Positions 5,222-45,145 of a DNA stretch of 64,000 nucleotides are shown piece by piece; the stretch's first letter is position 1; each line of letters starts with the position of its first letter. The notes under the pieces are model-generated. The model ran no database searches. It was given only the letters and a program-made list of their open reading frames with translations, and was not told where the DNA came from. The position numbers were made by a program, and so were the translations under genes. Source of the DNA: Xylanimonas protaetiae (GTDB lineage: Bacteria; Actinomycetota; Actinomycetes; Actinomycetales; Cellulomonadaceae); the NCBI RefSeq assembly GCF_004135385.1, contig NZ_CP035493.1:1612001-1676000 (forward strand), written 5' to 3'.

Positions 5222-6147
5222 CCGACTTTGACACCGCCCCGGACATCGCGCATGTCCGTTCCTCGCTCACGCAGATCAAGCCCACGCCGGGCACGGTCGC
5301 GTTCCGCGTCTTCAACACGATCTTCCTGACGCTGCTCTCGCTGGTGACGATCTACCCGTTCGTCAACCTGGTCGCCAAGGCGTTCTCGTCCGACGGCGAG
5401 ATCGCCGCCGGGCACGTCAACCTGTGGCCTCGCGGCTTCACGACGACGACGTTCCACTTCGTGCTGACCGACCCGATGTTCTGGCTGAACTACCGCAACA
5501 CGCTCGTGTACACGGTGCTCGGCACCGTGATCGCCATGGCGATCACGACGACGTTCGCCTACGCGATCAGCCGCCCGAACCTGCGCGGCCGCGGGTTCTT
5601 CGTCGGCATCGCCGTGTTCACGATGTTCTTCGGCGGCGGCCTGATCCCGAACTACATCCTGGTCACGCAGTGGCTGCACATGCGCAACACCATCTGGGCG
5701 ATCGTCCTGCCCGGTGCGCTGAGCGTGTTCAACCTGCTGGTGATGAAGTCGTTCTTCGAGAACTTCCCCACGGAGCTCGAGGAAGCCGCGTCGCTCGACG
5801 GCCTGTCCACCTACGGCGTGTTCTTCCGCGTCGTGATGCCGCTGTCGAAGGCCGTCCTGGCGACCATGACCCTCTTCTATGCCGTCGGTGCGTGGAACAG
5901 CTGGTTCGGCGCCTTCCTCTACCTCGACGACAAGACCAAGTTCCCCGTGATGATGTACCTGCGAAACCTCATCGCCGGCGCCACGGGATCCGTGGACATC
6001 GCGGGTAACGCGAACGACGCCGTGCAGATCGGCCAGAACATCCAGTCGGTGACCATGCTGCTCACCGTCCTGCCGATCGTCTGCGTCTACCCGTTCGTCC
6101 AGAAGTACTTCGTCTCGGGCGTGATGCTCGGTTCCGTCAAGGGCTGA
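5215..6147 (+). CDS. ABC transporter permease, LplC/YtcP type
   Basis: A 310-residue permease with six predicted helices and an EAA loop (LEEAASLDGLSTYGVFFRVVMPL). It is the partner of the preceding gene and would form the membrane channel of an oligosaccharide importer. Two adjacent GTG codons (5215 and 5218) can start it. The first is favoured by GGTGGGA at 5200-5206, and either overlaps the upstream TGA at 5219-5221, which suggests translational coupling. The family members end, as here, with a short VKG tail. Confidence 0.9.
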   Translation: MVTDFDTAPDIAHVRSSLTQIKPTPGTVAFRVFNTIFLTLLSLVTIYPFVNLVAKAFSSDGEIAAGHVNLWPRGFTTTTFHFVLTDPMFWLNYRNTLVYTVLGTVIAMAITTTFAYAISRPNLRGRGFFVGIAVFTMFFGGGLIPNYILVTQWLHMRNTIWAIVLPGALSVFNLLVMKSFFENFPTELEEAASLDGLSTYGVFFRVVMPLSKAVLATMTLFYAVGAWNSWFGAFLYLDDKTKFPVMMYLRNLIAGATGSVDIAGNANDAVQIGQNIQSVTMLLTVLPIVCVYPFVQKYFVSGVMLGSVKG

Positions 6148-6211
6148 CGGAACCCATTTCCCCGGGCGAGGACGCCCACGTCGGACAACGACGTTCCAAC
6201 GAAGGAGAACC

Positions 6212-7900
6212 ATGAAGAACATCCGCAGGAGCTCGGCTGCGGTGGCGACGGTCGCCACTCTCGCCCTGGCCCTGACCGCCTGCTCGTCCGGCGGGGACAA
6301 CGACGCCGCGGCGAACGACACGCCCGCCGCGTCGCCCTCGGCCGAGGAGCTCATCAAGCCGGAGCAGTCCGTCGGCGCCATGGAGGACTTCAAGGTCGGC
6401 ACGACCTTCAAGGCCACCGAGCCCGTGGACTTCTCGCTGATGTACCGCGACCACCCGAACTACCCGGTGAAGGAGGACTGGGAGTTCTTCACCGCGCTCA
6501 AGGCGAACCAGAACGTCTCGTTCACCCGCACCGACATCCCGCTGTCCGACTGGGACAACAAGCGCGCGCTGCTCTTCGGCGCCGGCGACTTCCCGGACAT
6601 CACCTCGGTCATGTACCCGGGCCAGGAGTCGCAGTTCGTCGCCTCCGGTGCGCTCCTGCCGGTCTCCGACTACCTCCAGTACATGCCGAACTTCTCGGAC
6701 AAGGTCGAGAAGTGGGGCCTGTCGGGCGAGCTCGACGCCCTGCGCCAGTCCGACGGCAAGTTCTACCTGCTGCCCGGCCTGCGCGAGGTCCCGGACGTCC
6801 AGTACACCGTGTGCCCGAACGACGACATGTGGAAGGCCGCCGGCATCACGGAGGACCCGAAGACGTGGGACGAGTTCGCCGCTGACCTGAAGAAGGTCAA
6901 GGACGCCAACCCGACCATCAAGTTCGCGATGTCCGAGCGCTGGAACACCTCGTCGAACTGGGGCCCGCTGGGCGCCCTCATGCAGACCATGGGCCCGACC
7001 TTCAACACCGTGGGCGGCTGGGGCTACGCGCCGACGTCGTTCAACAAGAAGGACGGCAAGTTCGAGCTGACGGCCACGTCGGCCGGCACCAAGGACATGG
7101 TCACCTACCTGGCCGGCCTGGTCTCCGACGGCCTGCTCGACCCGCAGATCACGCAGGACGACGACACCGCGAACGCCAAGTTCCTCAACGGCGAGTCGGC
7201 CACGATCTCCTGCAACACGCAGGGCATCACGAACGACATCCGCAAGAAGGCCGCTGACACCGGCAAGACGATCAACACGCACCTCATGGTCATCCCCGGC
7301 GGCCCCGCCGGGAACGTGATCGCCGGCTCGCGTCTCGCCCAGGGTGTCGTGCTCAACGCCGACGTCGCCGAGAAGCCGTACTTCAAGGCGCTGCTGCAGT
7401 TCGTCGACTGGCTGTACTTCTCCGACGAGGGCATCGAGTTCGCCGTGTGGGGCGACGCCAACACCTTCACCAAGGACGCCTCGGGCGCCCGCGTGCTCAA
7501 CGCCGACATCAACGGCAACAACCAGAACCCGGACGGCGCCAAGAAGCTCCAGGCCGACTTCGGCTTCTACAACGGCGTGTTCATGGCCGGCACCGGTTCG
7601 ACCGCCGACCTGGTCCAGTCGACCATGAACGACGAGATCCGTGGCTGGACCAAGACCATCATCGACGGCTCGGACCTGCGTCCGGCGAACCCGCCGACCC
7701 CGATGGACGCGGACACCCGTGAGGCCCTGGCCCTCCTGGAGACCCAGGTCCACGACGCCGCGCAGACGGGCATCGCCTCGTTCATCACCGGTGAGAAGCC
7801 GCTGAGCGACTGGGACGCGTTCGTCAGCCAGCTCGACGGCCTCGGCGGCTCGCAGATCGTCGACGACTACAACACGGCCTACCAGGCGGCCAAGAAGTAG
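6212..7900 (+). CDS. Extracellular oligosaccharide-binding lipoprotein, LplA type
   Basis: A 562-residue solute-binding lipoprotein. The signal peptide ends in the lipobox LTAC (Cys at about residue 27) followed by a Ser/Gly/Asp linker. The length, larger than ordinary sugar-binding proteins (about 430), is typical of the LplA/YtcQ group that binds long or branched oligosaccharides. AAGGAG lies 7 nt before the ATG. It is the third gene of the permease operon, 64 nt after the second permease. The convergent alpha-glucuronidase suggests that the cargo is a methylglucuronic-acid-substituted xylo-oligosaccharide (inference). Confidence 0.9.
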   Translation: MKNIRRSSAAVATVATLALALTACSSGGDNDAAANDTPAASPSAEELIKPEQSVGAMEDFKVGTTFKATEPVDFSLMYRDHPNYPVKEDWEFFTALKANQNVSFTRTDIPLSDWDNKRALLFGAGDFPDITSVMYPGQESQFVASGALLPVSDYLQYMPNFSDKVEKWGLSGELDALRQSDGKFYLLPGLREVPDVQYTVCPNDDMWKAAGITEDPKTWDEFAADLKKVKDANPTIKFAMSERWNTSSNWGPLGALMQTMGPTFNTVGGWGYAPTSFNKKDGKFELTATSAGTKDMVTYLAGLVSDGLLDPQITQDDDTANAKFLNGESATISCNTQGITNDIRKKAADTGKTINTHLMVIPGGPAGNVIAGSRLAQGVVLNADVAEKPYFKALLQFVDWLYFSDEGIEFAVWGDANTFTKDASGARVLNADINGNNQNPDGAKKLQADFGFYNGVFMAGTGSTADLVQSTMNDEIRGWTKTIIDGSDLRPANPPTPMDADTREALALLETQVHDAAQTGIASFITGEKPLSDWDAFVSQLDGLGGSQIVDDYNTAYQAAKK

Positions 7901-32232: not shown

Positions 32233-33693
32233 ATGCCCGACGTTCCCGACCTGCTGACGCTCGGCCGCCGCGTCCGCCACCTGCGCACGCGCCGCGGCCT
32301 GACCCTCGACGCGCTGGGCGCGGCCGTGGGTGCGGCGCCGTCGCTGCTCTCGCTCATCGAGAACGGCAAGCGTGAGCCCCGGCTCTCCCTGCTGCGCCAG
32401 CTCGCGGAGGCGCTGGGCGTCGACGTCGGCGAGCTGCTCGCCGCCGAGGCGCCCGACCGGCGGGCCGCCCTCGAGATCGCGCTGGAGCGCGCGCAGCGCG
32501 GCCCGCTCTTCGGGGAGCTCGGGCTGCCGCAGGTCAGGCCGTCGCAGAAGCTGCCCATGCCGGTGCTCGAGCAGCTCGTCGGCCTGCACGCCGAGCTGGC
32601 CCGGCGTGAGGAGGAGGCCATCGCGACCCCGGAGGAGGCGCGGCGGGCCAACACCGAGCTGCGGCTCGGCCGTCAGGAGCGCGGCAACTACTTCCCCGAG
32701 ATCGAGACCGTGGCCGAGCAGCTCGTCACGCGGGCCGGGTACCCGGGCGGCGGGGCCGTGTCCCACCGCACGGTCGCGCGCGTGGCCGAGGCGCTCGGCT
32801 TCAGGATCCTGCACGTCGCCGACCTGCCCCGCTCGGCCCGCACCGTCACCGACCTCAAGAACGGCCGCATCTACCTGCCGCAGGCCTCCACGCCCGGCGG
32901 GCACGGCCTGCGCTCGCTCGCCCTCCAGGCGGTCGCGCACCGCGTGCTCGGCCACGAGCGCCCGCGCTCGTACGGCGAGTTCCTGCGGCAGCGCGTCGAG
33001 ATCACGTACTTCGCGGCCGCCGCGCTCATGCCGCTCACCGCGTCGACGACGTTCCTCGCCGAGCGCAAGCGCGAGAAGGACCTCGCCGTCGAGGACTTCC
33101 GGGACGCGTTCGGCGTCACGCACGAGGCCGCCGCGATGCGCCTGACCAACCTCGCCACCGTGCACCTCGCCATGCCCCTGCACTTCCTACGCGTGGGCGC
33201 CGACGGCGCCCTGTTCCGCGGGTACGCCAACGACGGCATGCCGCTGCCGCAGGACGTCACCGGGGCGATCGAGGGCCAGCTCGTGTGCCGCAAGTGGGCC
33301 GCGCGCGCCGTGTTCGAGCGCCGCGACCGCGCCACCGAGCACTACCAGTACATCGACACGCCCGCGGGCACGTTCTGGGACTCCGTCGCCATGGGGACGC
33401 AGGGTCCCGACGACGCCGGCGGCTTCTCCGTCACGCTCGGCGTGCCGTACGCGGACGCCAAGTGGTTCCGCGGTCGTGACACCCGCGAGCGCCGCACCTC
33501 CACGTGCCCGGACCCGGCCTGCTGCCAGCGCCCGCCGGCCGACCTCGCCGACCGCTGGTCCGGCGCCGCGTGGCCGAGCGCCCGCATGCACCAGCAGATC
33601 CTCGCTGCGCTGCCCCGCGGGCGGTTCCCGGGCGTCGAGGACGCGGAGCTGTTCGCGTTCCTGGACCGGCACGCGCCCAAGGAGGGGGCGTGA
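32233..33693 (+). CDS. RamB/ScfR-type XRE regulator with ImmA/IrrE-like domain
   Basis: A 486-residue regulator. An XRE helix-turn-helix occupies residues about 9-65 (LGRRVRHLRTRRGLTLDALGAAVGAAPSLLSLIENGKREP). The middle is an ImmA/IrrE-like fold whose zinc motif is degraded (AHRVLGHERP rather than HEXXH). The C-terminus is the DUF2083-type domain with a cysteine cluster (CPDPACC). This architecture is that of RamB, which controls glyoxylate and carbon metabolism genes in corynebacteria and mycobacteria. ATG lies 6 nt after a -10 box, so the mRNA is probably almost leaderless. The PPTase gene overlaps its stop. Confidence 0.9.
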   Translation: MPDVPDLLTLGRRVRHLRTRRGLTLDALGAAVGAAPSLLSLIENGKREPRLSLLRQLAEALGVDVGELLAAEAPDRRAALEIALERAQRGPLFGELGLPQVRPSQKLPMPVLEQLVGLHAELARREEEAIATPEEARRANTELRLGRQERGNYFPEIETVAEQLVTRAGYPGGGAVSHRTVARVAEALGFRILHVADLPRSARTVTDLKNGRIYLPQASTPGGHGLRSLALQAVAHRVLGHERPRSYGEFLRQRVEITYFAAAALMPLTASTTFLAERKREKDLAVEDFRDAFGVTHEAAAMRLTNLATVHLAMPLHFLRVGADGALFRGYANDGMPLPQDVTGAIEGQLVCRKWAARAVFERRDRATEHYQYIDTPAGTFWDSVAMGTQGPDDAGGFSVTLGVPYADAKWFRGRDTRERRTSTCPDPACCQRPPADLADRWSGAAWPSARMHQQILAALPRGRFPGVEDAELFAFLDRHAPKEGA

Positions 33694-34367
33694 TCGTCCT
33701 GCGCGTGCTGGAGGTTCCCGACGATGACGGCGGCCCGCCCGCCGCGGCGCGGCGCTCGTCTCCGCTGGACGCGGCGCCGCGCTCGGCCTTGCTGGACGCG
33801 GCGCGCCGCTCGGCCCTGCTGGTCGCCGTGCTGTGCGAGGCCGGCGTCGACGTCGGCGAGCCCGTCGCGCTCGTGCGGCGGTGCCGCGTGTGCGGGTCCA
33901 CCGAGCACGGCAAGCCCGAGGTCGCGGCGGCGCTCGCGGTGGGCGTGCACGTCAGCCTCGCGCACACGCGGCGCCGGCTGGTGGCCGCCGCCGCCCGCGG
34001 GCCGGTGGGCGTGGACGTCGAGGACGTCGCCGCCGTGGCCGCGCACCCGGTCGCGGACGTCCTGCTGTCCGACGCCGAGCGCGCGGCCGGGCACCCGCTC
34101 GACGCCGAGTCCCTCACGCGCACGTGGGTGCGCAAGGAGGCCCTGCTCAAGGCCACCGGGCACGGGCTGCACGTGCCGCCGTCGGCGGTCACGCTGAGCC
34201 TCCCGGGCGACGGCGAGCCGCGGCTGCTCGGCTGGGACGGCCCGGGCGTCGCGCCGGTCCCGGGAGCGTGGACCGAGGAACGGAGCGATGGGCTCGGGCT
34301 GCCCGCGTCGTGGGTGTGCGCGGTCGCGCTCAGGCCCACGAGGCAGGCCATGCATCCGGCCGCATGA
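33690..34367 (+). CDS. 4'-phosphopantetheinyl transferase, Sfp superfamily
   Basis: A 225-residue PPTase that would load carrier proteins with the phosphopantetheine arm. The core motifs are VGVDVEDV (Mg-binding Asp and Glu) and WVRKEALLKATGHGL; VSLAHTRRRLVAA is the usual segment before them. The N-terminal 45 residues contain a short internal repeat (S-P/A-L-L-D-A-A). GTG overlaps the stop of the RamB-like gene (GTGA). About 2.4 kb downstream ends the Pls-like synthetase, whose carrier domain needs such an enzyme, so this is its most likely activator (inference). Confidence 0.87.
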   Translation: MIVLRVLEVPDDDGGPPAAARRSSPLDAAPRSALLDAARRSALLVAVLCEAGVDVGEPVALVRRCRVCGSTEHGKPEVAAALAVGVHVSLAHTRRRLVAAAARGPVGVDVEDVAAVAAHPVADVLLSDAERAAGHPLDAESLTRTWVRKEALLKATGHGLHVPPSAVTLSLPGDGEPRLLGWDGPGVAPVPGAWTEERSDGLGLPASWVCAVALRPTRQAMHPAA

Positions 34368-34440: not shown

Positions 34441-35086
34441 GAGGATTCAGCGCCCGATGGCGGTCGTCACGCCGACGCTCGACGGCGACGTGCTGACGGT
34501 GCTGGCTCGCGCCTCCGCGGCCTTCACGCCGGGGCAGGTGTCCCGCCTGGTTCCCGGCGGCTCGGTCGACGGCATCCGCAAGGCCCTCAACCGGCTGGTC
34601 GACGAGGGGACCGTCATCGCGGACCGGGCGGGCAACGCCTACACGTACCGCCTCAACAACGAGCATCTCGCCGCCGAGCCGATCGTCGCGCTCGCTCGGC
34701 TGCGAGAGACGCTGATCGTCCGCTTGACCCAGACGGTGGCCGCATGGACGCCGGCGCCGACCTATGCGGCGATCTTCGGTTCGGCCGCTCGGGGAGAGAT
34801 GCGTTCCGACTCCGACATCGACCTGTTCCTGGTCCGCCCTGAGGCTTCCAGGGCTGACCAGTGGGACGAGCAGGTCGCAGACCTGGCCCTCGCTGCCCGC
34901 CGGTGGACCGGCAACGACGTCCGCCCGCTGGTGATGTCGCGATCCGAGGTCACAGCCGGTGTGGCCCCGACGGACGACGGCCTCGTCGAGCCGGTCCTGG
35001 AGGACATCGCCAGGGAGGGCATCGCGTTTGCCGGACCGTCCGCGTGGCTGAGCCGCCAGATCCGCACCGCCAGGAGGATCGCATGA
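34439..35086 (+). CDS. Winged-helix plus MNT-type nucleotidyltransferase
   Basis: A 215-residue protein with two parts. Residues about 10-75 form a winged-helix DNA-binding fold (FTPGQVSRLVPGGSVDGIRKALNRLVDEGTV). Residues about 105-200 form a minimal nucleotidyltransferase: FGSAARGEMRSDSDIDLFLV has the GS motif (114-115) and the metal Asp pair (126 and 128). MNT proteins in toxin-antitoxin pairs of MNT-HEPN type attach AMP to their partner. The promoter carries a tandem repeat that could be its operator. The partner gene overlaps its stop (ATGA). Confidence 0.8.
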   Translation: MRIQRPMAVVTPTLDGDVLTVLARASAAFTPGQVSRLVPGGSVDGIRKALNRLVDEGTVIADRAGNAYTYRLNNEHLAAEPIVALARLRETLIVRLTQTVAAWTPAPTYAAIFGSAARGEMRSDSDIDLFLVRPEASRADQWDEQVADLALAARRWTGNDVRPLVMSRSEVTAGVAPTDDGLVEPVLEDIAREGIAFAGPSAWLSRQIRTARRIA

Positions 35087-35343
35087 GCCCGCGCACGGTC
35101 TCCACCGACCAGCACGCCCGCAGGGGTCGCCTCGCCAAGGCCCGGCAGTTCGCTGAGGCTGCCGAGATCGTGCACGCCCTCGCTGGCGGTCAGGCCGACC
35201 TCCTCGATGCTTATGACCTGGACGTCCTGCTCGGCATGAAGACCCAGGCAGGGTACGGACACGAGCCGGTCACGCCTGAGCGGGCCGTGCGGTCGGGCAG
35301 GGCCATGGATGCGCTGCTGGTCGCAGCGGGGATCGTGGGATGA
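35083..35343 (+). CDS. Small partner protein of the nucleotidyltransferase
   Basis: An 86-residue, mostly helical protein that starts in the ATGA overlap with the nucleotidyltransferase gene. The opening LAKARQFAEAAEIVHALAGGQADLLDAYDLDVLLG resembles the first helices of HEPN-like proteins found beside MNT genes, but the RX4-6H catalytic motif of HEPN RNases is absent, so it is either an inactive or a different partner. AGGAGGATC precedes the ATG. It ends 32 nt before the stop of the convergent peptidase gene. Confidence 0.65.
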   Translation: MSPRTVSTDQHARRGRLAKARQFAEAAEIVHALAGGQADLLDAYDLDVLLGMKTQAGYGHEPVTPERAVRSGRAMDALLVAAGIVG

Positions 35344-35374: not shown

Positions 35375-36751
35375 TCAGGCCGGGAGCGCCGGCAGGGGGC
35401 GGGCGTCCAGCCACGGGGTCAGGGCGCCCGCGGCCGCGGCGCCGCAGCGCTCCGCGACCAGCGCGCGGAAGTCCGACGTCGTCGCGGTGCCGTGGCGGAA
35501 CCGCTCGGTCCAGGCGTGCAGCAGGCCGAAGAAGCGGTCGTCGCCCACGACCGTGCGCAGCGCGTGCAGGGTCAGGGCGCCGCGCTTGTAGGTGCGGTCG
35601 TCGAACATCAGGTCGGGCCCGGGGTCGGTAAGCAGCAGGTCCTGGGGGAGCCCAGCCAGCCGCGCGTGGTGCTCGGCCGCGTGCTCGGCCGCCGACGGCC
35701 CGCCCGACCGCTCCGACCACAGCCACTCGGCGTAGCAGGCGAAGCCCTCGTGCAGCCAGATGTCGCTCCAGCGCGCGGCCGTCACCGAGTTGCCGAACCA
35801 CTGGTGGGCGAGCTCGTGCGCCACGAGCCGGTCCTCGGGCTTCGACCCGTCCAGGTGGTTGGCGCCGAACACGGCCGTGCCGTGCGCCTCGAGCGGGATC
35901 TCGAGCTCGTCGGGCGTGACGACGACGGTGTACGCGGCGAACGGGTACGGGCCGAAGAGCTCCTCGAAGACGGCGAGGAGCGCGCCGTGCCGGTCGAGGT
36001 CGTGCGCGACGGCGGCGGCCTGCGGGGCGGGGCGCGCCACCTGCACGAGCGGGGTGGCGCGGGCGCCGGACGACGTCGCCGGCGCCCCGCTGCGAGGTGC
36101 CTCGTCGCGGGGTGTCTCGTCGCGGGGTACGACGTCGAGCGGGACGACGTCGTACCGCCCGATCTGCACCGTCGCCAGATAGACGTTGAGCGGCTCGGTC
36201 CGCTGGAACACCCACGTGCGCGTCCCCGCCCGGCGCGTGACCTTGGCGACCGGCGCGTTCGCCACCACGGTGTACGGGGCGTCGGTGGTCAGCGTGAGGT
36301 CGATCGTGGACTTCGGCCCCAGCCGGTCGTTGCACGGGAACCAGGTGGGGGCGCCGTCGGGCTGCCCGGCGACCAGCACGCCCTCGCCCAGCTCCTCCCA
36401 GCCGGTCTCGCCCCACGGGCCCCGGCCCGGGCGGGGGTTGCCCGCGTACGTGATCGCGACCGTGGCCGTGGCACCTGGGGCGAGCGGTCGCGGCAGGCGC
36501 ACCCGCATCGACCGCTTGTTGGCCGCGAACTTCGCCGGCCTCCCGCCGACCTCCACGCGCGCGACCCGCAGCCCGATGAGGTCGAGCCGCAGGTCGGTGC
36601 ACGCCTCGACGGCGCGCACGCCGAGGCGCGCCGTGCCCTCCAGCCGGTTGGGCTCGACGCGGTAGCGCAGGTCCAGCGCGTAGTGCTCGACGACGTAGTC
36701 CGCCGAGCCGTGGTTCGGAAGATAGGGGTCCGGGTCACGACGGTGCGGCAT
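35375..36751 (-). CDS. M1-family zinc metallopeptidase
   Basis: A 458-residue M1 aminopeptidase-like protein. The zinc site HELAHQWFGN plus the downstream Glu in LHEGFACYAEWLW is complete, and the catalytic Tyr is likely in DRTYKRGALTLHAL. The N-terminal beta domain (about 1-200) is present. The typical GAMEN motif is replaced by a DELEIPLEAHG segment, so exopeptidase anchoring may differ. A Pro/Arg/Asp repeat (VPRDETPRDEAPR) forms a linker. It starts 11 nt after the Pls-like gene, on the same strand. Zinc aminopeptidases degrade epsilon-poly-lysine in Streptomyces, so a polymer-processing role is plausible (inference). Confidence 0.88.
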   Translation of the reverse strand: MPHRRDPDPYLPNHGSADYVVEHYALDLRYRVEPNRLEGTARLGVRAVEACTDLRLDLIGLRVARVEVGGRPAKFAANKRSMRVRLPRPLAPGATATVAITYAGNPRPGRGPWGETGWEELGEGVLVAGQPDGAPTWFPCNDRLGPKSTIDLTLTTDAPYTVVANAPVAKVTRRAGTRTWVFQRTEPLNVYLATVQIGRYDVVPLDVVPRDETPRDEAPRSGAPATSSGARATPLVQVARPAPQAAAVAHDLDRHGALLAVFEELFGPYPFAAYTVVVTPDELEIPLEAHGTAVFGANHLDGSKPEDRLVAHELAHQWFGNSVTAARWSDIWLHEGFACYAEWLWSERSGGPSAAEHAAEHHARLAGLPQDLLLTDPGPDLMFDDRTYKRGALTLHALRTVVGDDRFFGLLHAWTERFRHGTATTSDFRALVAERCGAAAAGALTPWLDARPLPALPA

Positions 36752-36762
36752 GGCCGGTGACT

Positions 36763-39700
36763 CTACCGATCCCGGGCAGTGGGCCGGGCCGCCCAGGGCG
36801 CGACCGGGTTGCCCTGCCAGCGCGACCCCTGCGGCAGCACCTCGCCGCGCATGACGAGCGACGCCGGGCCCGCGACGGTGCCCGCGCCGAGCCGGGCGGC
36901 GGGCAGCACCACGGAGTGCGGCCCCACGGTGGCACCTGCCTCGACGCGCACGCCGTCGAGCGACATGACGCGGTCGTGGAACAGGTGCGTCTGGAGCACC
37001 GTCCCGCGGCCGACGGCGGCGCCGTCGTCGAGCGTGACGAGGTCGCCCTCCGGCAGCCAGTACGTCTCGAGCCAGACGCCGCGGCCGATGTGCGCGCCCA
37101 TGGTGCGCAGCCAGGCCGTGAGGACGGGCGTGCCGAGCACGTGGTTGGTGAACCACGGCGCGGCGACCACCTCGGTGAACGTGTCGGCCAGCTCGTTGCG
37201 CCACACGAACGAGCTCCACAGCGGGTGCTCGGACGCGTCGAACCGGCCCACGAGCAGCCGCTTCGCGCCCGTCGTCACGGCGGCCGCGACGAGGGCGGCG
37301 ACGACGAGGGCCCCGCCGGCGGCCAGCGCGCCGAGCCCCCAGCCGCCCAGGTGTGCGACCTCCAGCACCGCGACGACGACGCCCGCGCCGAGCGCCCCGG
37401 AGACGACCGTGGCCGTCAGCCGCAGCACCTCGACCCCACCGCGCGCCCAGCGCAGCCGGGCGGGCGGCTCGTAGGTGAGGCCCTCGTCGTCGGACCCGCC
37501 GACGGTGCGGGGGAGCAGCACGGGCGGGCTGCCGATCCACGACGAGCCCTTCTTGGCCTTGTGCGGGGCCGCGGACAGCACCGCGACGAGCCCGTTCTTG
37601 GGCACCGAGCGGCCCGGCGCCGTGATGCCCGAGTTGCCGAGGAACGCGCGCCGGCCCACCTTGGCCGGGGCGACGCGCAGCCAGCCGCCGCCCAGCTCGT
37701 AGGGGGCCACCATGGTGTCGTCGGCGAGGAACGCGCCGTCGGAGGCCTCCATCATCGTCGGGATGCCCACCACGGTGGACGCCTCGACGTGGCGGCCCAT
37801 GCGCGCGCCGAGCAGACGCAGCCACGCGGGTGTGGCGATGCTCGAGTACAGCGGGAACAGCACGGTGCGGGCGGCGTCCATGACGCGCTCGGTGCACCAC
37901 GCCTGCCAGCCCGTCCGGCTGCGCACGGGGTGGAACCCGGCGCGCATGCCGAGCGCGAGCAGCCGCACGAGCACCACGGTGAGCACCGCGTAGGCCGCGA
38001 ACGCGGCGAGGATCGCGACGGGCAGCCACGCCGCCGCCGAGCGCAGCGCGTCCGCCGGGGTCGCCGCGTCGCCGGCGCCGCCCAGCAACACCAGTACGCC
38101 GGCCGCGAGCGCGAGCACCGGCTGGAGTCCCAGCAGCACGCCGCCGGCCTGGTAGGCGAGCACCCAGCCTCCGCCGCGCGCGGGCCGCTCGTCGGGCCAC
38201 GGGTGCTTGACCTCGCTGCGGCGGCGGGTCGCGGGCGACCCCTCCCAGTACTCGTTCGTCCCGGTGCCGCCGACGACGGCGGAGCCCGCCGCGATGTCCG
38301 TGCCGCGCCCGACGTGCGCCCCGGGCAGCAGCACGCTGCGTGCCCCGACGGTGGCGTCCGCCCCGACGACGACGCGGCCCACGTGCAGCACGTCGCCCTC
38401 GAGCCAGTGCCCGGACAGGTCGACCTCGGGCTCGACCGCGGCACGGTCGCCGACGGTGAGCAGCCCGGTGACGGGCGGCAGCGTGTGCAGGTCGACGCCG
38501 CGCCCGATGCGGGCGCCGAGCGCGCGGGCGTAGAGGCCGACGAGCGGGGCCGCGGCCACCGTGATGCCGCCGAGCGCCTCGACGAGCTGCTCGGCGAGCC
38601 ACAGCCGCCGGTGCGCCGAGCCGCCGCGCGGGTGGTCGCCCGGCCCGACGCCGCGCAGCAGCAGCCGGGCGGCGCCCGCGGCGAGCGCGAGGCGGCCAGG
38701 CGCCGCGACGAGCAGCAGCCAGGCGACCACAAGCCACGGCCACGACACCGCGGGCAGCGACGCGAGCACGCGCTCGGCGCCGGGCCCGAGCCACGCGTCC
38801 CCCGGGAGCCGCAGCAGCCCGACGACGATGGCGGCCCACGTGGCCCACCGCAGCCCCGCCACGAGCCGGAGCAGGATCAAGGCCACCACCTGGAAGGCCT
38901 GGGTCCCTCGGGGGGTCGGCGTGCCGGGCGGGGGCGCGGCGGCGTCGTCGTCCCCGGCGCCGTACGTCACCTGGAGGAACGTCGCGAGGTCCGCGACGGT
39001 CGGGTTGGCGTACAGGTCGGCGACCGTGGCGAGCGGGTAGCGCTCGCGCACGGCCGAGACCACCTGCGCCGCGGTCAGCGAGCCGCCGCCGAGGTCGAAG
39101 AAGTCGTCGTCGGCCGACGTCGGCGGGACGCCGAGCACGCGGCCCCACACCTCGGCCACCCACTCCTGGACGGGGTCGGCGAGGGCGGCGACGTCGTCGT
39201 CCGACGGGGTGGCCACGCCGGGGAGCGGCCACGGCAGCGCGTCACGGTCCACCTTGCCGCTCGTGCGCGTGGGGATCTCCCCGACGACGCCGAGCAGCGG
39301 CACGAGCGCGGCGGGCAGCACCTCGCGCAGGTGGGCGGTGAGCGCGGCGGCGTCGAACGACGGCGCGTGCGACGGGACGACGTACCCGACGATGACCTTG
39401 TTGCCGGCTGCGGTGGTGCGCACGGCCGCGGCCGCGGCCTCGACCTGCGGCGACGCGAGCAGGGCCGCGTCGAGCTCGCCGAGCTCGATGCGCCGCCCGC
39501 CCACCTTGACCTGGTCGTCGGCGCGCCCCAGGAACAGCAGGCCCGCGGGGTCGTTCACGACGAGGTCGCCGGACCGGTACGCGCGTTCCCAGCCGAGCGA
39601 CGGCAGCGGCGCGTACTTCTCGGCGTCCTTGGCGGGGTCGAGGTAGCGCCCCAGCCCGACGCCGCCGATGACGAGCTCGCCCGCCGCACCCTCGGGCACC

Positions 39701-40692
39701 GGCTCGCCCGCCTCGTCGACGACGACGAGGTCCCACCCGTCGAGCGGCAGCCCGATGCGCACGGGCCCGACGCCGTCGAGGATCGCGGCGCACGCGACGA
39801 CGGTCGCCTCCGTCGGGCCGTACGTGTTCCACACCTCGCGCCCGTCCGCGGCGAGGCGCGTCGCGAGCTCGGGCGGCACGGACTCGCCGCCGAAGATCAG
39901 CAGGCGGACCCTCGCCAGGTCCGCCGCGGGCAGCAGGCCCGCCAGGGTCGGCACCGTGGAGATCGCGGTGATGCCCTGCGCGGCCACCCACGGGCCCAGG
40001 TCCAGGCCGGTGCGCACGAGCGCGCGGTCCGCGGGCACGAGGCAGGCGCCGTGCCGCCAGGCCAGCCACATCTCCTCGCAGCTCGCGTCGAACGCGACCG
40101 ACAGCCCGGCGAGCACGCGGTCGCCCGGTCCCAGCGGGTCTGCCTGGAGGAAGAGGCGCGCCTCGGCGTCGACGAACGCGGCCGCGCTGCGGTGCGTGAC
40201 GGCCACGCCCTTGGGCACGCCGGTGGACCCGGACGTGAAGATGATCCAGGCGACGTCGTCGAGCCCGGGCGCGCCGGCGACCCGGGCCGCCGGGGGAGCC
40301 GCCGTCGGGACGTCGATCGCTCCGTCGTCGCCGACGACGGCGACCACGCCCGCCTCGCCGAACACGAGCTCGGCGCGCTCCTCCGGGTCGTCACGGTCGA
40401 CGGGCACGTAGGCGGCGCCCGCGTGCAGCACGGCGAGGATCGCGAGGTACAGGTCCGCGCGGCCCGACGTCGCCCGCACGCCGACGCGGTCGCCGCGGCG
40501 CACGCCGGCGTCGGCGAGCGCCCTCGCACGGGCCGTCACCTCGGCGACCACCTCGGCGTACGACCAGGCGCGGACGCCGTCGTCGATGGCGGGGGCGTCG
40601 GGGTGGGCGGCCGCCGTCGCGGCCAGGAGCTCGACCAGGGTGCGCGGGGTCGCCGCGCGATCACCGGCGAGCAGGGGGGACAGCGTGGGCAC
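36763..40692 (-). CDS. Pls/PosA-type membrane non-ribosomal peptide synthetase
   Basis: A 1309-residue synthetase with the plan of epsilon-poly-L-lysine synthetase. An adenylation domain (about 20-490) has IIFTSGSTGVPKG, NTYGPTEATVV, YRSGDLV and TSGKVDRDALP. A carrier domain has LGGGSL with Ser538 for phosphopantetheine. The C-terminal 700 residues hold about six membrane helices around three left-handed beta-helix-like domains (hexapeptide patterns such as VGADATVGARSVLLPGAHVG). No condensation or thioesterase domain is present. By GrsA positions, the ten code residues are D202, A203, E206, S245, I266, G268, T290, V298, V299 and K480, a set that fits Lys/Orn-type substrates. GTG at 40692. 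Confidence 0.9.
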   Translation of the reverse strand: MPTLSPLLAGDRAATPRTLVELLAATAAAHPDAPAIDDGVRAWSYAEVVAEVTARARALADAGVRRGDRVGVRATSGRADLYLAILAVLHAGAAYVPVDRDDPEERAELVFGEAGVVAVVGDDGAIDVPTAAPPAARVAGAPGLDDVAWIIFTSGSTGVPKGVAVTHRSAAAFVDAEARLFLQADPLGPGDRVLAGLSVAFDASCEEMWLAWRHGACLVPADRALVRTGLDLGPWVAAQGITAISTVPTLAGLLPAADLARVRLLIFGGESVPPELATRLAADGREVWNTYGPTEATVVACAAILDGVGPVRIGLPLDGWDLVVVDEAGEPVPEGAAGELVIGGVGLGRYLDPAKDAEKYAPLPSLGWERAYRSGDLVVNDPAGLLFLGRADDQVKVGGRRIELGELDAALLASPQVEAAAAAVRTTAAGNKVIVGYVVPSHAPSFDAAALTAHLREVLPAALVPLLGVVGEIPTRTSGKVDRDALPWPLPGVATPSDDDVAALADPVQEWVAEVWGRVLGVPPTSADDDFFDLGGGSLTAAQVVSAVRERYPLATVADLYANPTVADLATFLQVTYGAGDDDAAAPPPGTPTPRGTQAFQVVALILLRLVAGLRWATWAAIVVGLLRLPGDAWLGPGAERVLASLPAVSWPWLVVAWLLLVAAPGRLALAAGAARLLLRGVGPGDHPRGGSAHRRLWLAEQLVEALGGITVAAAPLVGLYARALGARIGRGVDLHTLPPVTGLLTVGDRAAVEPEVDLSGHWLEGDVLHVGRVVVGADATVGARSVLLPGAHVGRGTDIAAGSAVVGGTGTNEYWEGSPATRRRSEVKHPWPDERPARGGGWVLAYQAGGVLLGLQPVLALAAGVLVLLGGAGDAATPADALRSAAAWLPVAILAAFAAYAVLTVVLVRLLALGMRAGFHPVRSRTGWQAWCTERVMDAARTVLFPLYSSIATPAWLRLLGARMGRHVEASTVVGIPTMMEASDGAFLADDTMVAPYELGGGWLRVAPAKVGRRAFLGNSGITAPGRSVPKNGLVAVLSAAPHKAKKGSSWIGSPPVLLPRTVGGSDDEGLTYEPPARLRWARGGVEVLRLTATVVSGALGAGVVVAVLEVAHLGGWGLGALAAGGALVVAALVAAAVTTGAKRLLVGRFDASEHPLWSSFVWRNELADTFTEVVAAPWFTNHVLGTPVLTAWLRTMGAHIGRGVWLETYWLPEGDLVTLDDGAAVGRGTVLQTHLFHDRVMSLDGVRVEAGATVGPHSVVLPAARLGAGTVAGPASLVMRGEVLPQGSRWQGNPVAPWAARPTARDR

Positions 40693-40879: not shown

Positions 40880-41707
40880 TCACCCGTGGAAGCGGGCCGG
40901 GTGGGGGCCGGTGCGCCCGTTGCGGTCGAGGGCGTCGATCGCGGCGACCTCGGCCGGGTCGAGCTCGAAGCCGAAGACGTCGAGGTTGCTCGCGATGCGG
41001 GCCGGCGTGACGGACTTGGGGATGACGACGGTGCCGTGCTGGAGGTGCCAGCGGATGACGACCTGGGCGGACGAGACGGCGTGCCGTGCCGCGGCCCGGG
41101 TGACAGCGGGCTCGTCGAGCACCGCGCCCTGCGCGAGCGGGCTCCAGGCCTCGGTCGCGATGCCGTGCCGGGCGTTCGCGGCGACGGTGTCACGGTTCTG
41201 GAGCGCGGGGTGGAGCTCGACCTGGTTGACCGCCGGCACGGTCCCGCCCAGGGCGACGACGCGGTCGAGGTGCTCCGGCAGGAAGTTGGACACGCCGATC
41301 GCGCGGGCGGTGCCGGCGGCGGCGAGCGCCTCGAGGCCCTGCCAGGTGTCGAGGTAGGCGTCGGTCGCCGGTGCCGGCCAGTGGACGAGGTAGAGGTCGA
41401 CACGCTCGAGGCCGAGGCGGTCGAGGCTGGCCTCCAGGGCGGGGCGGGCGCGGTCGCGGCCGAGGTCGTCGACCCAGAGCTTGGTGGTGACGAAGACCTC
41501 GTCGCGCGCGAGGCCGGTCGCGGCGAGGGCACGGCCCACGCCCTGCTCGTTGCCGTAGACGGCGGCGGTGTCGATGCTGCGGTAGCCGGCCTCGAGCGCG
41601 GTCTCGACCGCGCGCTGCGCCTGGTCGTCGGGCACCTGGAAGACGCCGAAGCCGAGCTGGGGCATGACGACGCCGTTGTTGAGGGTGATCTCGGGGATGA
41701 CGGGCAC
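40880..41707 (-). CDS. Aldo/keto reductase, 2,5-diketogluconate reductase-like
   Basis: A 275-residue AKR of family 5. The tetrad is Asp and Tyr in GYRSIDTAAVYGNEQGVGRAL, Lys in VTTKLWVDD and His in YLVHWPAP. The cofactor end reads VIPKSVTPARIASNLDVFGFEL. Family 5 enzymes reduce diverse aldehydes, ketones and 2,5-diketo-D-gluconate with NADPH. GTG at 41705-41707 has AAAGGAA upstream and precedes the conserved ITLNNGVVMPQLGFG. It is transcribed in the same direction as the MFS gene 76 nt upstream and may share its transcript. Confidence 0.9.
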   Translation of the reverse strand: MPVIPEITLNNGVVMPQLGFGVFQVPDDQAQRAVETALEAGYRSIDTAAVYGNEQGVGRALAATGLARDEVFVTTKLWVDDLGRDRARPALEASLDRLGLERVDLYLVHWPAPATDAYLDTWQGLEALAAAGTARAIGVSNFLPEHLDRVVALGGTVPAVNQVELHPALQNRDTVAANARHGIATEAWSPLAQGAVLDEPAVTRAAARHAVSSAQVVIRWHLQHGTVVIPKSVTPARIASNLDVFGFELDPAEVAAIDALDRNGRTGPHPARFHG

Positions 41708-41731
41708 GAGGTTCCTTTGCGATGGTGGAGC

Positions 41732-41770
41732 GACTGCGGTGGTCGGTGGAGGGACTGCGGTGGTCGGTGG
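41732..41770. repeat. Tandem direct repeat, 18 bp at 21-bp period
   Basis: GACTGCGGTGGTCGGTGG occurs exactly at 41732-41749 and 41753-41770, in the gap between the MFS and aldo/keto reductase genes. A slipped duplication or a tandem binding site are both possible. Confidence 0.8.
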
Positions 41771-41783
41771 TGGGACGAGAGGG

Positions 41784-42962
41784 TCAGAGGGCCGGCACCG
41801 GCGTGGCGGTGGCGAGCTCGCCACCGCGGACGCGGGCCGCGACGAGGTAGGCGACGAGCCCGGCGAGCGTGACGGCGGCACCGGCCCACAGCGGCGACGT
41901 GTACCCGAGCCCGGCGGCGAGCGTGAGGCCGCCGACCCAGGCGCCGAAGGCGTTGCCGATGTTGAACGCGGCGATGTTGGCTCCGGAGGCGAGGGTCGCC
42001 GCGTCGGAGGCGTGGTTCATGATCCGCATCTGGAGCCCGGGCACGGTGGCGAACCCGAAGCCGCCCATGAGCACGAGCGCCACCAGGGTGGCCACGTGCG
42101 AGGATGCCGTCAGGGCGAACCCGGCGAGGATGACGGTGAGGGCCGACATGAGCACGACGAGCGTGGCGACGAGGTTGCGGTCGGCGAAGCGTCCGCCGAG
42201 GAGGTTGCCGGCGAACAGGCCGACGCCGAACAGCACGAGCAGCCAGGGCACGGCCGAGGCGTCGAAGCCGCCCACCTCGGTGAGGGTGAAGGCGATGTAG
42301 GTGAAGGCGCCGAACATGCCGCCGTAGCCGAGCACGGTCACCAGCATGGAGAGCCACACCTGCCCGCTGCGGAAGATGCGGAACTCGGCCAGGACGCCGT
42401 GCCCGCCGCGCGCCACGGGGGTCGGCCGGACGAGGGCGAGGATGCCGACGAACGCGACGACGCCGATGGCGGTGATGGCCCAGAACGTCGAGCGCCAGCC
42501 GGCGGCCTGGCCGAGGAAGGTGCCGAGCGGGACGCCCGCGACGTTGGCGATCGTCAGGCCGGCGAACATCATGGAGATGGCCGCGGCCCGGCGGTTCTCG
42601 GGGACCAGGTCGGTGGCGACGACCGCGCCGATGCCGAAGAACGCGCCGTGGCACAGCGCGGCGACGACGCGGCCCGCGAGCATGAGCCCGTAACCGGGCG
42701 CGACGGCCGAGATCAGGTTCCCGGCGATGAACAGGAGCAGGAGCCCGAGCAGGGCCTTCTTCCGGTCGACCCGTCCCAGCAGCGCCGTGAGCGCGACGCC
42801 CCCGACGGCGACCGAGAGGGCGTAGCCGGAGATGAGGTAGCCGGCGACGGTCTCGGTCACGCCGAAGTCCGACGCCACCTCGGGCAGCAGCCCCATGATG
42901 ACGAACTCCGTCAGACCGATCCCGAACCCGCCGAGTGCCAGCGCGTAGAGAGCAGCGGGCAT
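41784..42962 (-). CDS. MFS transporter, DHA1 family (AraJ/Cmx-like)
   Basis: A 392-residue MFS permease with 12 predicted helices. It starts with the family pattern ALGGFGIGLTEFVIMGLLPEVA, has the loop 2-3 signature ALLGRVDRKKALLG and the antiporter motif C region GVPLGTFLGQAAGWR in helix 5. The DHA1 AraJ-like group exports sugars, arabinose-like compounds or drugs such as chloramphenicol by proton antiport. GGAGGATC precedes the ATG. It is divergent from a MarR gene with operator-like repeats between them, an arrangement typical of a drug efflux gene and its repressor. Confidence 0.9.
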   Translation of the reverse strand: MPAALYALALGGFGIGLTEFVIMGLLPEVASDFGVTETVAGYLISGYALSVAVGGVALTALLGRVDRKKALLGLLLLFIAGNLISAVAPGYGLMLAGRVVAALCHGAFFGIGAVVATDLVPENRRAAAISMMFAGLTIANVAGVPLGTFLGQAAGWRSTFWAITAIGVVAFVGILALVRPTPVARGGHGVLAEFRIFRSGQVWLSMLVTVLGYGGMFGAFTYIAFTLTEVGGFDASAVPWLLVLFGVGLFAGNLLGGRFADRNLVATLVVLMSALTVILAGFALTASSHVATLVALVLMGGFGFATVPGLQMRIMNHASDAATLASGANIAAFNIGNAFGAWVGGLTLAAGLGYTSPLWAGAAVTLAGLVAYLVAARVRGGELATATPVPAL

Positions 42963-43005
42963 GAGGGATCCTCCGAGTGATGGGTACTGGGCCGCGTGTG
43001 CACTA

Positions 43006-43019
43006 GTTGCAGACGCAAC
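43006..43019. promoter_or_regulatory. MarR-type operator between MFS and marR genes
   Basis: GTTGC (43006-43010) and GCAAC (43015-43019) form an inverted repeat with a 4-bp spacer. AGTTGCACGCG at 43025-43035 repeats one half-site. The 125-bp divergent region is less GC-rich than its flanks. A -10-like TAGGCT is at 43058-43063. Confidence 0.55.
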
Positions 43020-43087
43020 GAGATAGTTGCACGCGCTCGTTATGCGCGCAAGTCTGGTAGGCTGACGCTCGGCAGTGAGGAGGGCGC

Positions 43088-43531
43088 ATGGGTATCGCCG
43101 ACGATGCCGTGGAGGTCCGGGCGCGCGGCTGGCGCACGCTCGTCGCGCTCCACGGGCTCATCGAGACCAGGCTCGAACGCGAGCTCCAGGCCGCGCACGA
43201 GCTCTCCGTCGTCGAGTTCACGGTGCTCGACGCCCTCAGCCGCCAGGACGGCTGGCACATGCGGATGCAGCAGCTCGCGCGCGCCGCGGCCCTCTCCAGC
43301 AGCGCCACCACCCGGCTCGTCACCCGGCTGGAGGATCGTGGCCTGCTCACGCGCATCCTGTGCGTCGACGACCGCCGGGGGATCTACACCGAGCTCACCG
43401 CGGCGGGTCACGCCCTGCTCGACCACGCCCGGCCGACGCACGACCGCGTGCTCGAGGACGCGCTCACCGAGGCGTCCGACGTCCCCGAGCTCTCCGCGCT
43501 CGTCGACGCCATCCACGCGCCCGTCCCCTGA
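43088..43531 (+). CDS. MarR-family transcriptional regulator
   Basis: A 147-residue MarR regulator. The winged helix lies at about residues 45-110: MRMQQLARAAALSSSATTRLVTRLEDRGLLTRI with the wing DDRRGIYTELTAAG. The flanking N- and C-terminal helices make the dimer interface. GAGGAGGG precedes the ATG. It is divergent from the DHA1 transporter and the shared region has MarR-type repeats, so it probably represses the exporter and itself until an aromatic ligand or drug binds. Confidence 0.92.
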   Translation: MGIADDAVEVRARGWRTLVALHGLIETRLERELQAAHELSVVEFTVLDALSRQDGWHMRMQQLARAAALSSSATTRLVTRLEDRGLLTRILCVDDRRGIYTELTAAGHALLDHARPTHDRVLEDALTEASDVPELSALVDAIHAPVP

Positions 43532-43631: not shown

Positions 43632-45145
43632 CTACTGCGTGTCGGCGTCCACCCAGTCGAACGTCTTGGTGACCGCCTTCTTCCACTGCCGGTACAGCCG
43701 CTCCCGCTCGCCCTGCTCCATGGACGGCGTCCAGCGCCGGTCCTCGGCCCAGTTCGCGGTCACGTCCGGCTCGCCGGACCAGAACCCGACGGCGATGCCG
43801 GCCGCGTAGGCGGCGCCGAGCGCCGTCGTCTCGGCGACGACGGGCCGCACGACGTCCACGCCGAGCTGGTCGGCCTGGAACTGCATGAGCAGCTCGTTGG
43901 CCACCATGCCGCCGTCGACCTTGAGCTCGGTGAGCTCGACGCCGGAGTCGGCACGCATGGCCTCCAGCACCTCGCGCGTCTGGAACGCCACGGCCTCCAG
44001 GGCCGCGCGCGCGATGTGGTTCTTGTTGACGTACCGGGTGAGCCCGACGAGCGCACCGCGGGCGTCCGGCCGCCAGTAGGGGCGAAGAGCCCGGAGAACG
44101 CCGGGACGAAGTACGCCCCGCCGTTGTTCTCGACCTTCCGGGCCATCCACTCGACGTCGGGCGCGTCCGAGAGGATGCCGAGGTTGTCGCGGAGCCACTG
44201 CACGAGCGACCCGGTGACGGCGATGGAGCCCTCGAGCGCGTACCGGGCCTCCTGGTCGCCGATCTTGTAGCAGACCGTGGTCAGCAGCCCGTTCTTCGAG
44301 GGGACCTTCTCCGTGCCCGTGTTGAGGAGCATGAAGTTGCCGGTGCCGTAGGTGTTCTTGGCCGTGCCGACCTCGAAGCACGCCTGTCCGAACGTGGCCG
44401 CCTGCTGGTCGCCGAGGATGCCCGCGATCGGCACGCCCGGCAGCAGGCCGCCGGGACGACCGGGCCCGTACACCTCGGACGAGGAACGGATCTCCGGCAG
44501 CATCGACAGGGGGATGCCCATGTCGGCGGCGATGTCCTCGCGCCACGAGAGCGTGTCGAGGTCCATGAGCATCGTGCGGGAGGCGTTGGTGACGTCCGTG
44601 ACGTGCACGCCGCCGTCGACGCCGCCGGTCATGTTCCACAGCACCCACGCGTCGGTGTTGCCGAACAGCAGGTCGCCGCGCTCCGCGGCCTCGCGCGTGC
44701 CGGGCACGTTGTCGAGGATCCACTTGACCTTGGGGCCGGAGAAGTAGGTGGCCAGCGGCAGGCCGACGATCGCCTTGTACTTGTCGGCGCCGGCCGCGCC
44801 GCCGAGCTCCTCGACGATGGGCTGGGTGCGGGTGTCCTGCCAGACGATCGCGTTGTAGACCGGCTTGCCCGTCGTCTTGTCCCAGACCACCGCCGTCTCG
44901 CGCTGGTTGGTGATGCCCACCGCGGCGATGTCGGTGTAGGTGACGTTCGCGCGGGTCAGGGCCAGCCCCACGGCCTCGCGCACGTTGTTCCAGATCTGGT
45001 CCGGGTTGTGCTCGACCCAGCCGGGCTGCGGGAAGATCTGGTCGTGCTCGAGCTGGCCGGTCGAGACGACCTTCCCGCTGTGGTCGAAGACCATCGCCCG
45101 CGAGCTCGTGGTGCCCTGGTCGATGGCGAGTACGTAGTCAGGCAT
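43632..45145 (-). pseudogene. glpK: Glycerol kinase, interrupted by a frameshift
   Basis: Glycerol kinase phosphorylates glycerol with ATP. Two overlapping frames together give the full protein of about 504 residues: the first runs from the ATG at 45143-45145 ([18 protein letters not shown]) to AFSGLFAP, and the second resumes with [18 protein letters not shown] and ends ...FDWVDADTQ at 43632. One base is missing near 44078-44082, where the plus strand reads AGTAGGGGCG instead of an expected AGTACGGGGCG. Apart from this the gene is intact. It is a recent mutation or a sequence error. Upstream on the same strand are glpF and glpD. Confidence 0.9.

Follow-up and report, generated by a model that had tools for sequence, protein, structure and literature searches.

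Within a 64,000-nucleotide stretch of Xylanimonas protaetiae DNA, analysed as a whole and referred to here as the window, the gene pls and the M1 zinc peptidase gene beside it very probably encode an epsilon-poly-L-lysine synthetase together with its PldII-type peptidase (Table 1). Pls is a well-studied enzyme and its operon has been described before; the window adds an orthologue, and such pairs are known from many actinobacteria. Epsilon-poly-lysine itself is an approved food preservative. A 2021 paper (PMC8117764) already described the Pls–peptidase operon and its occurrence across non-filamentous actinobacteria; our own observations concern the intactness of the gene, the order of its domains, the pocket residues, the predicted fold and the conservation of the operon at the locus described here.

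Table 1 Features of the pls locus (coordinates are positions in the window)
Feature	Coordinates	Strand	Description
pls, epsilon-poly-L-lysine synthetase orthologue	36763..40692	minus	1309 aa, GTG start; TIGR02353 656 bits; A domain 66% identical to 7WEW
Adenylation (A) domain	39217..40653	minus	residues about 14-492; D-A-E-S-I-G-T-V-V plus Lys480
Thiolation (T, carrier) domain	38974..39165	minus	residues 510-573; PF00550, E 2e-14
Membrane polymerisation domain	36802..38892	minus	residues 601-1297; TIGR02353, hydropathy peaks, AlphaFold2, Foldseek
M1 zinc peptidase, PldII-type partner	35375..36751	minus	458 aa; PF01433 + PF17900
Nucleotidyltransferase-domain protein and overlapping 86-residue ORF	34457-35343	plus	PF01909, weak PaaX-like helix-turn-helix match; between PPTase and peptidase
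4'-phosphopantetheinyl transferase (PPTase)	33690..34367	plus	PF01648; faces peptidase gene

The original prediction had described a 1309-residue protein with an A–T–membrane plan and neither condensation nor thioesterase domain, and the intact frame, Pfam and TIGR02353 all bear this out. The pls frame runs uninterrupted from its GTG start on the minus strand (the strand had been left unstated), and a Pfam scan of the entire 1309-residue protein returned AMP-binding (residues 24–347), PP-binding (510–573) and hexapeptide-repeat (774–806) matches and no condensation or thioesterase domain. The NCBIfam model TIGR02353 (Pls/PosA terminal domain; cut-off 423.1 bits) spans residues 601–1297 at 656.5 bits, covering profile positions 3–695 of 695. 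The phosphopantetheine serine of the carrier domain, Ser538, lies in LGGGSL and is invariant in the alignment of relatives; the same alignment shows every core motif of the A and T domains, as well as the membrane domain, to be intact and conserved. End-to-end alignment with these relatives, at 57–83% identity, puts the match far from chance. No second Pls copy was found, the 3.86 Mb genome holding a single TIGR02353 match over the cut-off. Two other identities were rejected: a conventional non-ribosomal peptide synthetase (NRPS) for a mixed peptide, since pls has no condensation or thioesterase domain, and a DltA-like protein or acyl-CoA ligase, on account of much weaker scores. That pls is a degraded or non-functional relict is extremely improbable; the gene is broken across two frames in another member of the genus (G006), but the copy in the window reads through all 1309 residues in one frame and retains catalytic Lys480, Ser538 and the motifs of the A domain.

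Judged from its sequence, lysine is the best-supported substrate of the A domain. The specificity residues, located via flanking motifs and checked in the same columns of 7WEW (the crystallized A domain of S. albulus Pls), are D202, A203, E206, S245, I266, G268, T290, V298 and V299 plus Lys480, and 7WEW carries the same DAESIGTVV and Lys. The code D-A-E-S-I-G-T-V-V-K, read by hand in the original prediction, was therefore correct, and the comparison with S. albulus Pls proposed there gives a pairwise A-domain identity of 66% (483 columns) with all nine specificity residues equal. These nine are constant in all 15 aligned family and order members; a motif script recovered the same set in 69 of 80 named loci, the other 11 being partly uncaptured and showing no conflict.

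The original prediction had named Lys, Orn or Dab as possible monomers. An enzyme of the same kind acting on another diamino acid, and so making delta-poly-ornithine, gamma-poly-Dab or beta-poly-Dap, would belong to the same family and share the charged Glu that is common to all Pls/PosA enzymes at the third specificity position (PMC10522769), yet we consider such an activity very unlikely here. The ornithine enzyme PosA has the code DMEHNGTVSK, in which Met218 limits pocket length; lysine-activating enzymes have Ala at this position and the Dap (PDAP) synthetase has Phe, and the PosA substitution M218A brings a nearly tenfold efficiency gain for lysine (PMC10522769). The PosA-type Met does not occur at the chain-length position of the enzyme in the window, which has Ala203. 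The nearest solved structure to the A domain is 7WEW at 624 bits, against 168 bits for PosA (8g95), and the tested paralogues of other specificity have no M1 peptidase beside them.

We built a maximum-likelihood tree from 37 A domains. One clade of 32, with 99/99 support, unites 7WEW with the copy in the window and 30 relatives; outside it fall three paralogues of other specificity, L137 and an unrelated NRPS from this genome. The branches to two of the tips are very long and most of the order within the Pls clade is unresolved, so the tree supports clade membership only. Three things favour lysine over ornithine and Dab: a pocket identical to the one in the lysine enzyme, the grouping of the A domain with Pls in the tree, and an M1 peptidase that accompanies only the lysine clade. 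The lysine option of the original prediction emerges as much better supported than the ornithine and Dab options, and its broader forecast of a Pls-type enzyme making a cationic isopeptide is well supported.

The peptidase gene begins 11 bp downstream of the pls stop codon, and its product has a complete zinc motif (HELAH-18-E, at residue 312). Among 30 relatives from the genus, family and order (the window's copy counted), 29 have such a gene 3' of pls in the same orientation, as do all 80 named actinobacterial loci, which were kept from at least 584 confirmed relatives; in five of the 80, a gap of 0.6–2.2 kb separates the two genes. This extra sequence occurs in L060, L069, L072, L078 and L095 (Williamsia, Tsukamurella). 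As a control, two Streptomyces-type genomes were found to have a Pls copy adjoining an M1 gene and a second TIGR02353 copy without one, and in another relative, too, the M1 peptidase is absent beside two TIGR02353 copies. Among the paralogues tested, the M1 gene thus accompanies the lysine clade alone.

By family and position, the peptidase is assigned to the PldII type, and the pair is the pls–pldII operon published for Streptomyces and C. variabile (PMC8117764). In S. albulus, translation of pldII is described as coupled to that of pls, self-protection requires the gene, and PldII is reported to lie outside the cell membrane (PMC9223678). Against this location, and counting against the favoured explanation, hydropathy analysis revealed no hydrophobic segment in the window's M1 peptidase. 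It is improbable that the conserved set of pls, M1 gene and facing PPTase gene in this family would yield a lysine polymer trimmed intracellularly by a cytosolic peptidase, with altered chain length or a surface role in place of a secreted antimicrobial. At the GAMEN position of classical M1 aminopeptidases the window's peptidase reads IPLEAHG; the corresponding stretch of its closest solved relative, 6a8z, is LALETAG, likewise non-canonical.

The paper describing PosA noted that no structural information existed on its membrane domain (PMC10522769), and our analysis found none. AlphaFold2 was run on the C-terminal 720 residues of the pls protein with 23 relatives; in the resulting model (mean pLDDT 85.7, pTM 0.87) long helices form three pairs, and three stretches of short, regular strands have the character of left-handed beta-helix (hexapeptide) domains, C1–C3. 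Hydropathy peaks in the membrane domain accompany the helix pairs. The best PDB matches found with Foldseek are hexapeptide acetyltransferases, with global TM-scores that are low because they cover only part of the model. The modelled fold agrees with the layout described for the PosA model, namely three helix pairs and three beta-helix domains.

A PPTase and an M1 peptidase had both been placed close to pls by the original prediction, and both are real. According to a profile search, 18 of the 80 named loci, most of them from Micrococcales, have a PPTase gene that converges on the peptidase gene. The genome has two further PPTase-family genes; it is plausible, as we infer, that the neighbouring PPTase loads the Pls carrier domain. 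Because five of six close relatives have just a short gap between the PPTase and peptidase genes, the nucleotidyltransferase segment between them looks like an insertion, possibly of an MNT-HEPN-type pair; an 86-residue ORF overlaps the nucleotidyltransferase gene. In a relative of the same genus (L123 of G002, 5364–6937), the PPTase was not found at its usual place, which is taken by other ORFs, among them an apparent helix-turn-helix regulator and a glyoxalase-like protein. Elsewhere, genome G000 holds a separate NRPS (L002, C1:3346682-3348460) with an adjoining PPTase-domain gene, its sequence resembling a C-A-T-TE (EntF-type) siderophore synthetase. Between pls and glpK (40880–43531) lie aldo/keto reductase, MFS transporter and MarR regulator genes, none of which was found at the corresponding place in six close relatives. 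The minus-strand glpK is frameshifted at about 44078–44105, a relative's 504-residue GlpK matching in two overlapping frames, 45145–44078 and 44105–43635; this may reflect true damage to the gene or an error in sequencing.

Relatives of pls are widespread, the 80 loci kept for analysis including Cellulomonas, Cellulosimicrobium, Rhodococcus, Nocardia, Mycobacterium, Microbacterium, Curtobacterium and Arthrobacter; the nearest named relative among the matches listed is Cellulomonas sp. PhB143. Counted from a table, the gene is present in about 31 of the 91 genomes in the window's family. Within the genus it is patchy, which also counts against the favoured explanation, as it occurs in three other species and is missing from at least two near-complete genomes. 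A report of epsilon-poly-lysine from Cellulomonas was not found in the open-access literature, which is weak evidence of absence. The C. variabile pls makes epsilon-poly-lysine with chains of 26 to 35 residues in S. coelicolor, and native C. variabile yields no detectable polymer although its gene is functional (PMC8117764); by this analogy pls may be silent in the present organism under laboratory culture. The wide occurrence in non-filamentous actinobacteria, the patchiness within the genus and the unseen native production would also suit a Pls-derived enzyme that releases no free antimicrobial and serves, for example, to make a short cationic chain held at the surface, or in stress or attachment. 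We regard this as highly improbable, since the membrane domain and all core motifs of the A and T domains have been conserved intact and the C. variabile orthologue gives chains of the stated length in its Streptomyces host.

Set beside known systems, the epsilon-poly-L-lysine synthetase proposed here has in common with S. albulus Pls/PldII its domain order, specificity residues, A-domain identity and adjacent peptidase gene; it differs in genus, in a peptidase without obvious membrane segment and in the PPTase gene adjoining the pair. With C. variabile Pls, likened from its published description, it shares a non-filamentous actinobacterial host and the operon, but the C. variabile product is proven by heterologous expression (PMC8117764), whereas the product here is predicted. 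PosA of A. baumannii (PMC10522769; 8G95) is likewise a TIGR02353 protein with an A–T–membrane plan and three predicted beta-helix domains, but differs in its pocket, is a much weaker match and stands alone without a peptidase gene.

With chemistry, product and self-protection role taken from published orthologues, a PPTase, probably the neighbouring one, would attach phosphopantetheine to the T domain; L-lysine, activated to lysyl-AMP by the A domain, would be passed by that domain to the carrier; and the membrane domain, with its six helices and three beta-helix domains, would couple the lysyl thioester to the epsilon-amine of free lysine or the growing chain. Lysine addition would repeat with no thioesterase involved, and the polymer, a cationic antimicrobial, would then be exported; by cutting polymer, the M1 peptidase would protect the producer. 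We infer polymer production by this strain, and service of Pls by this PPTase.

A known antimicrobial polymer is thus predicted for one more, Cellulomonas-related genus, and the system is not a new one. Its practical value would lie in a further candidate source of epsilon-poly-lysine and a candidate dedicated PPTase, with the known mechanism unchanged, and the genus provides species both with and without the operon.
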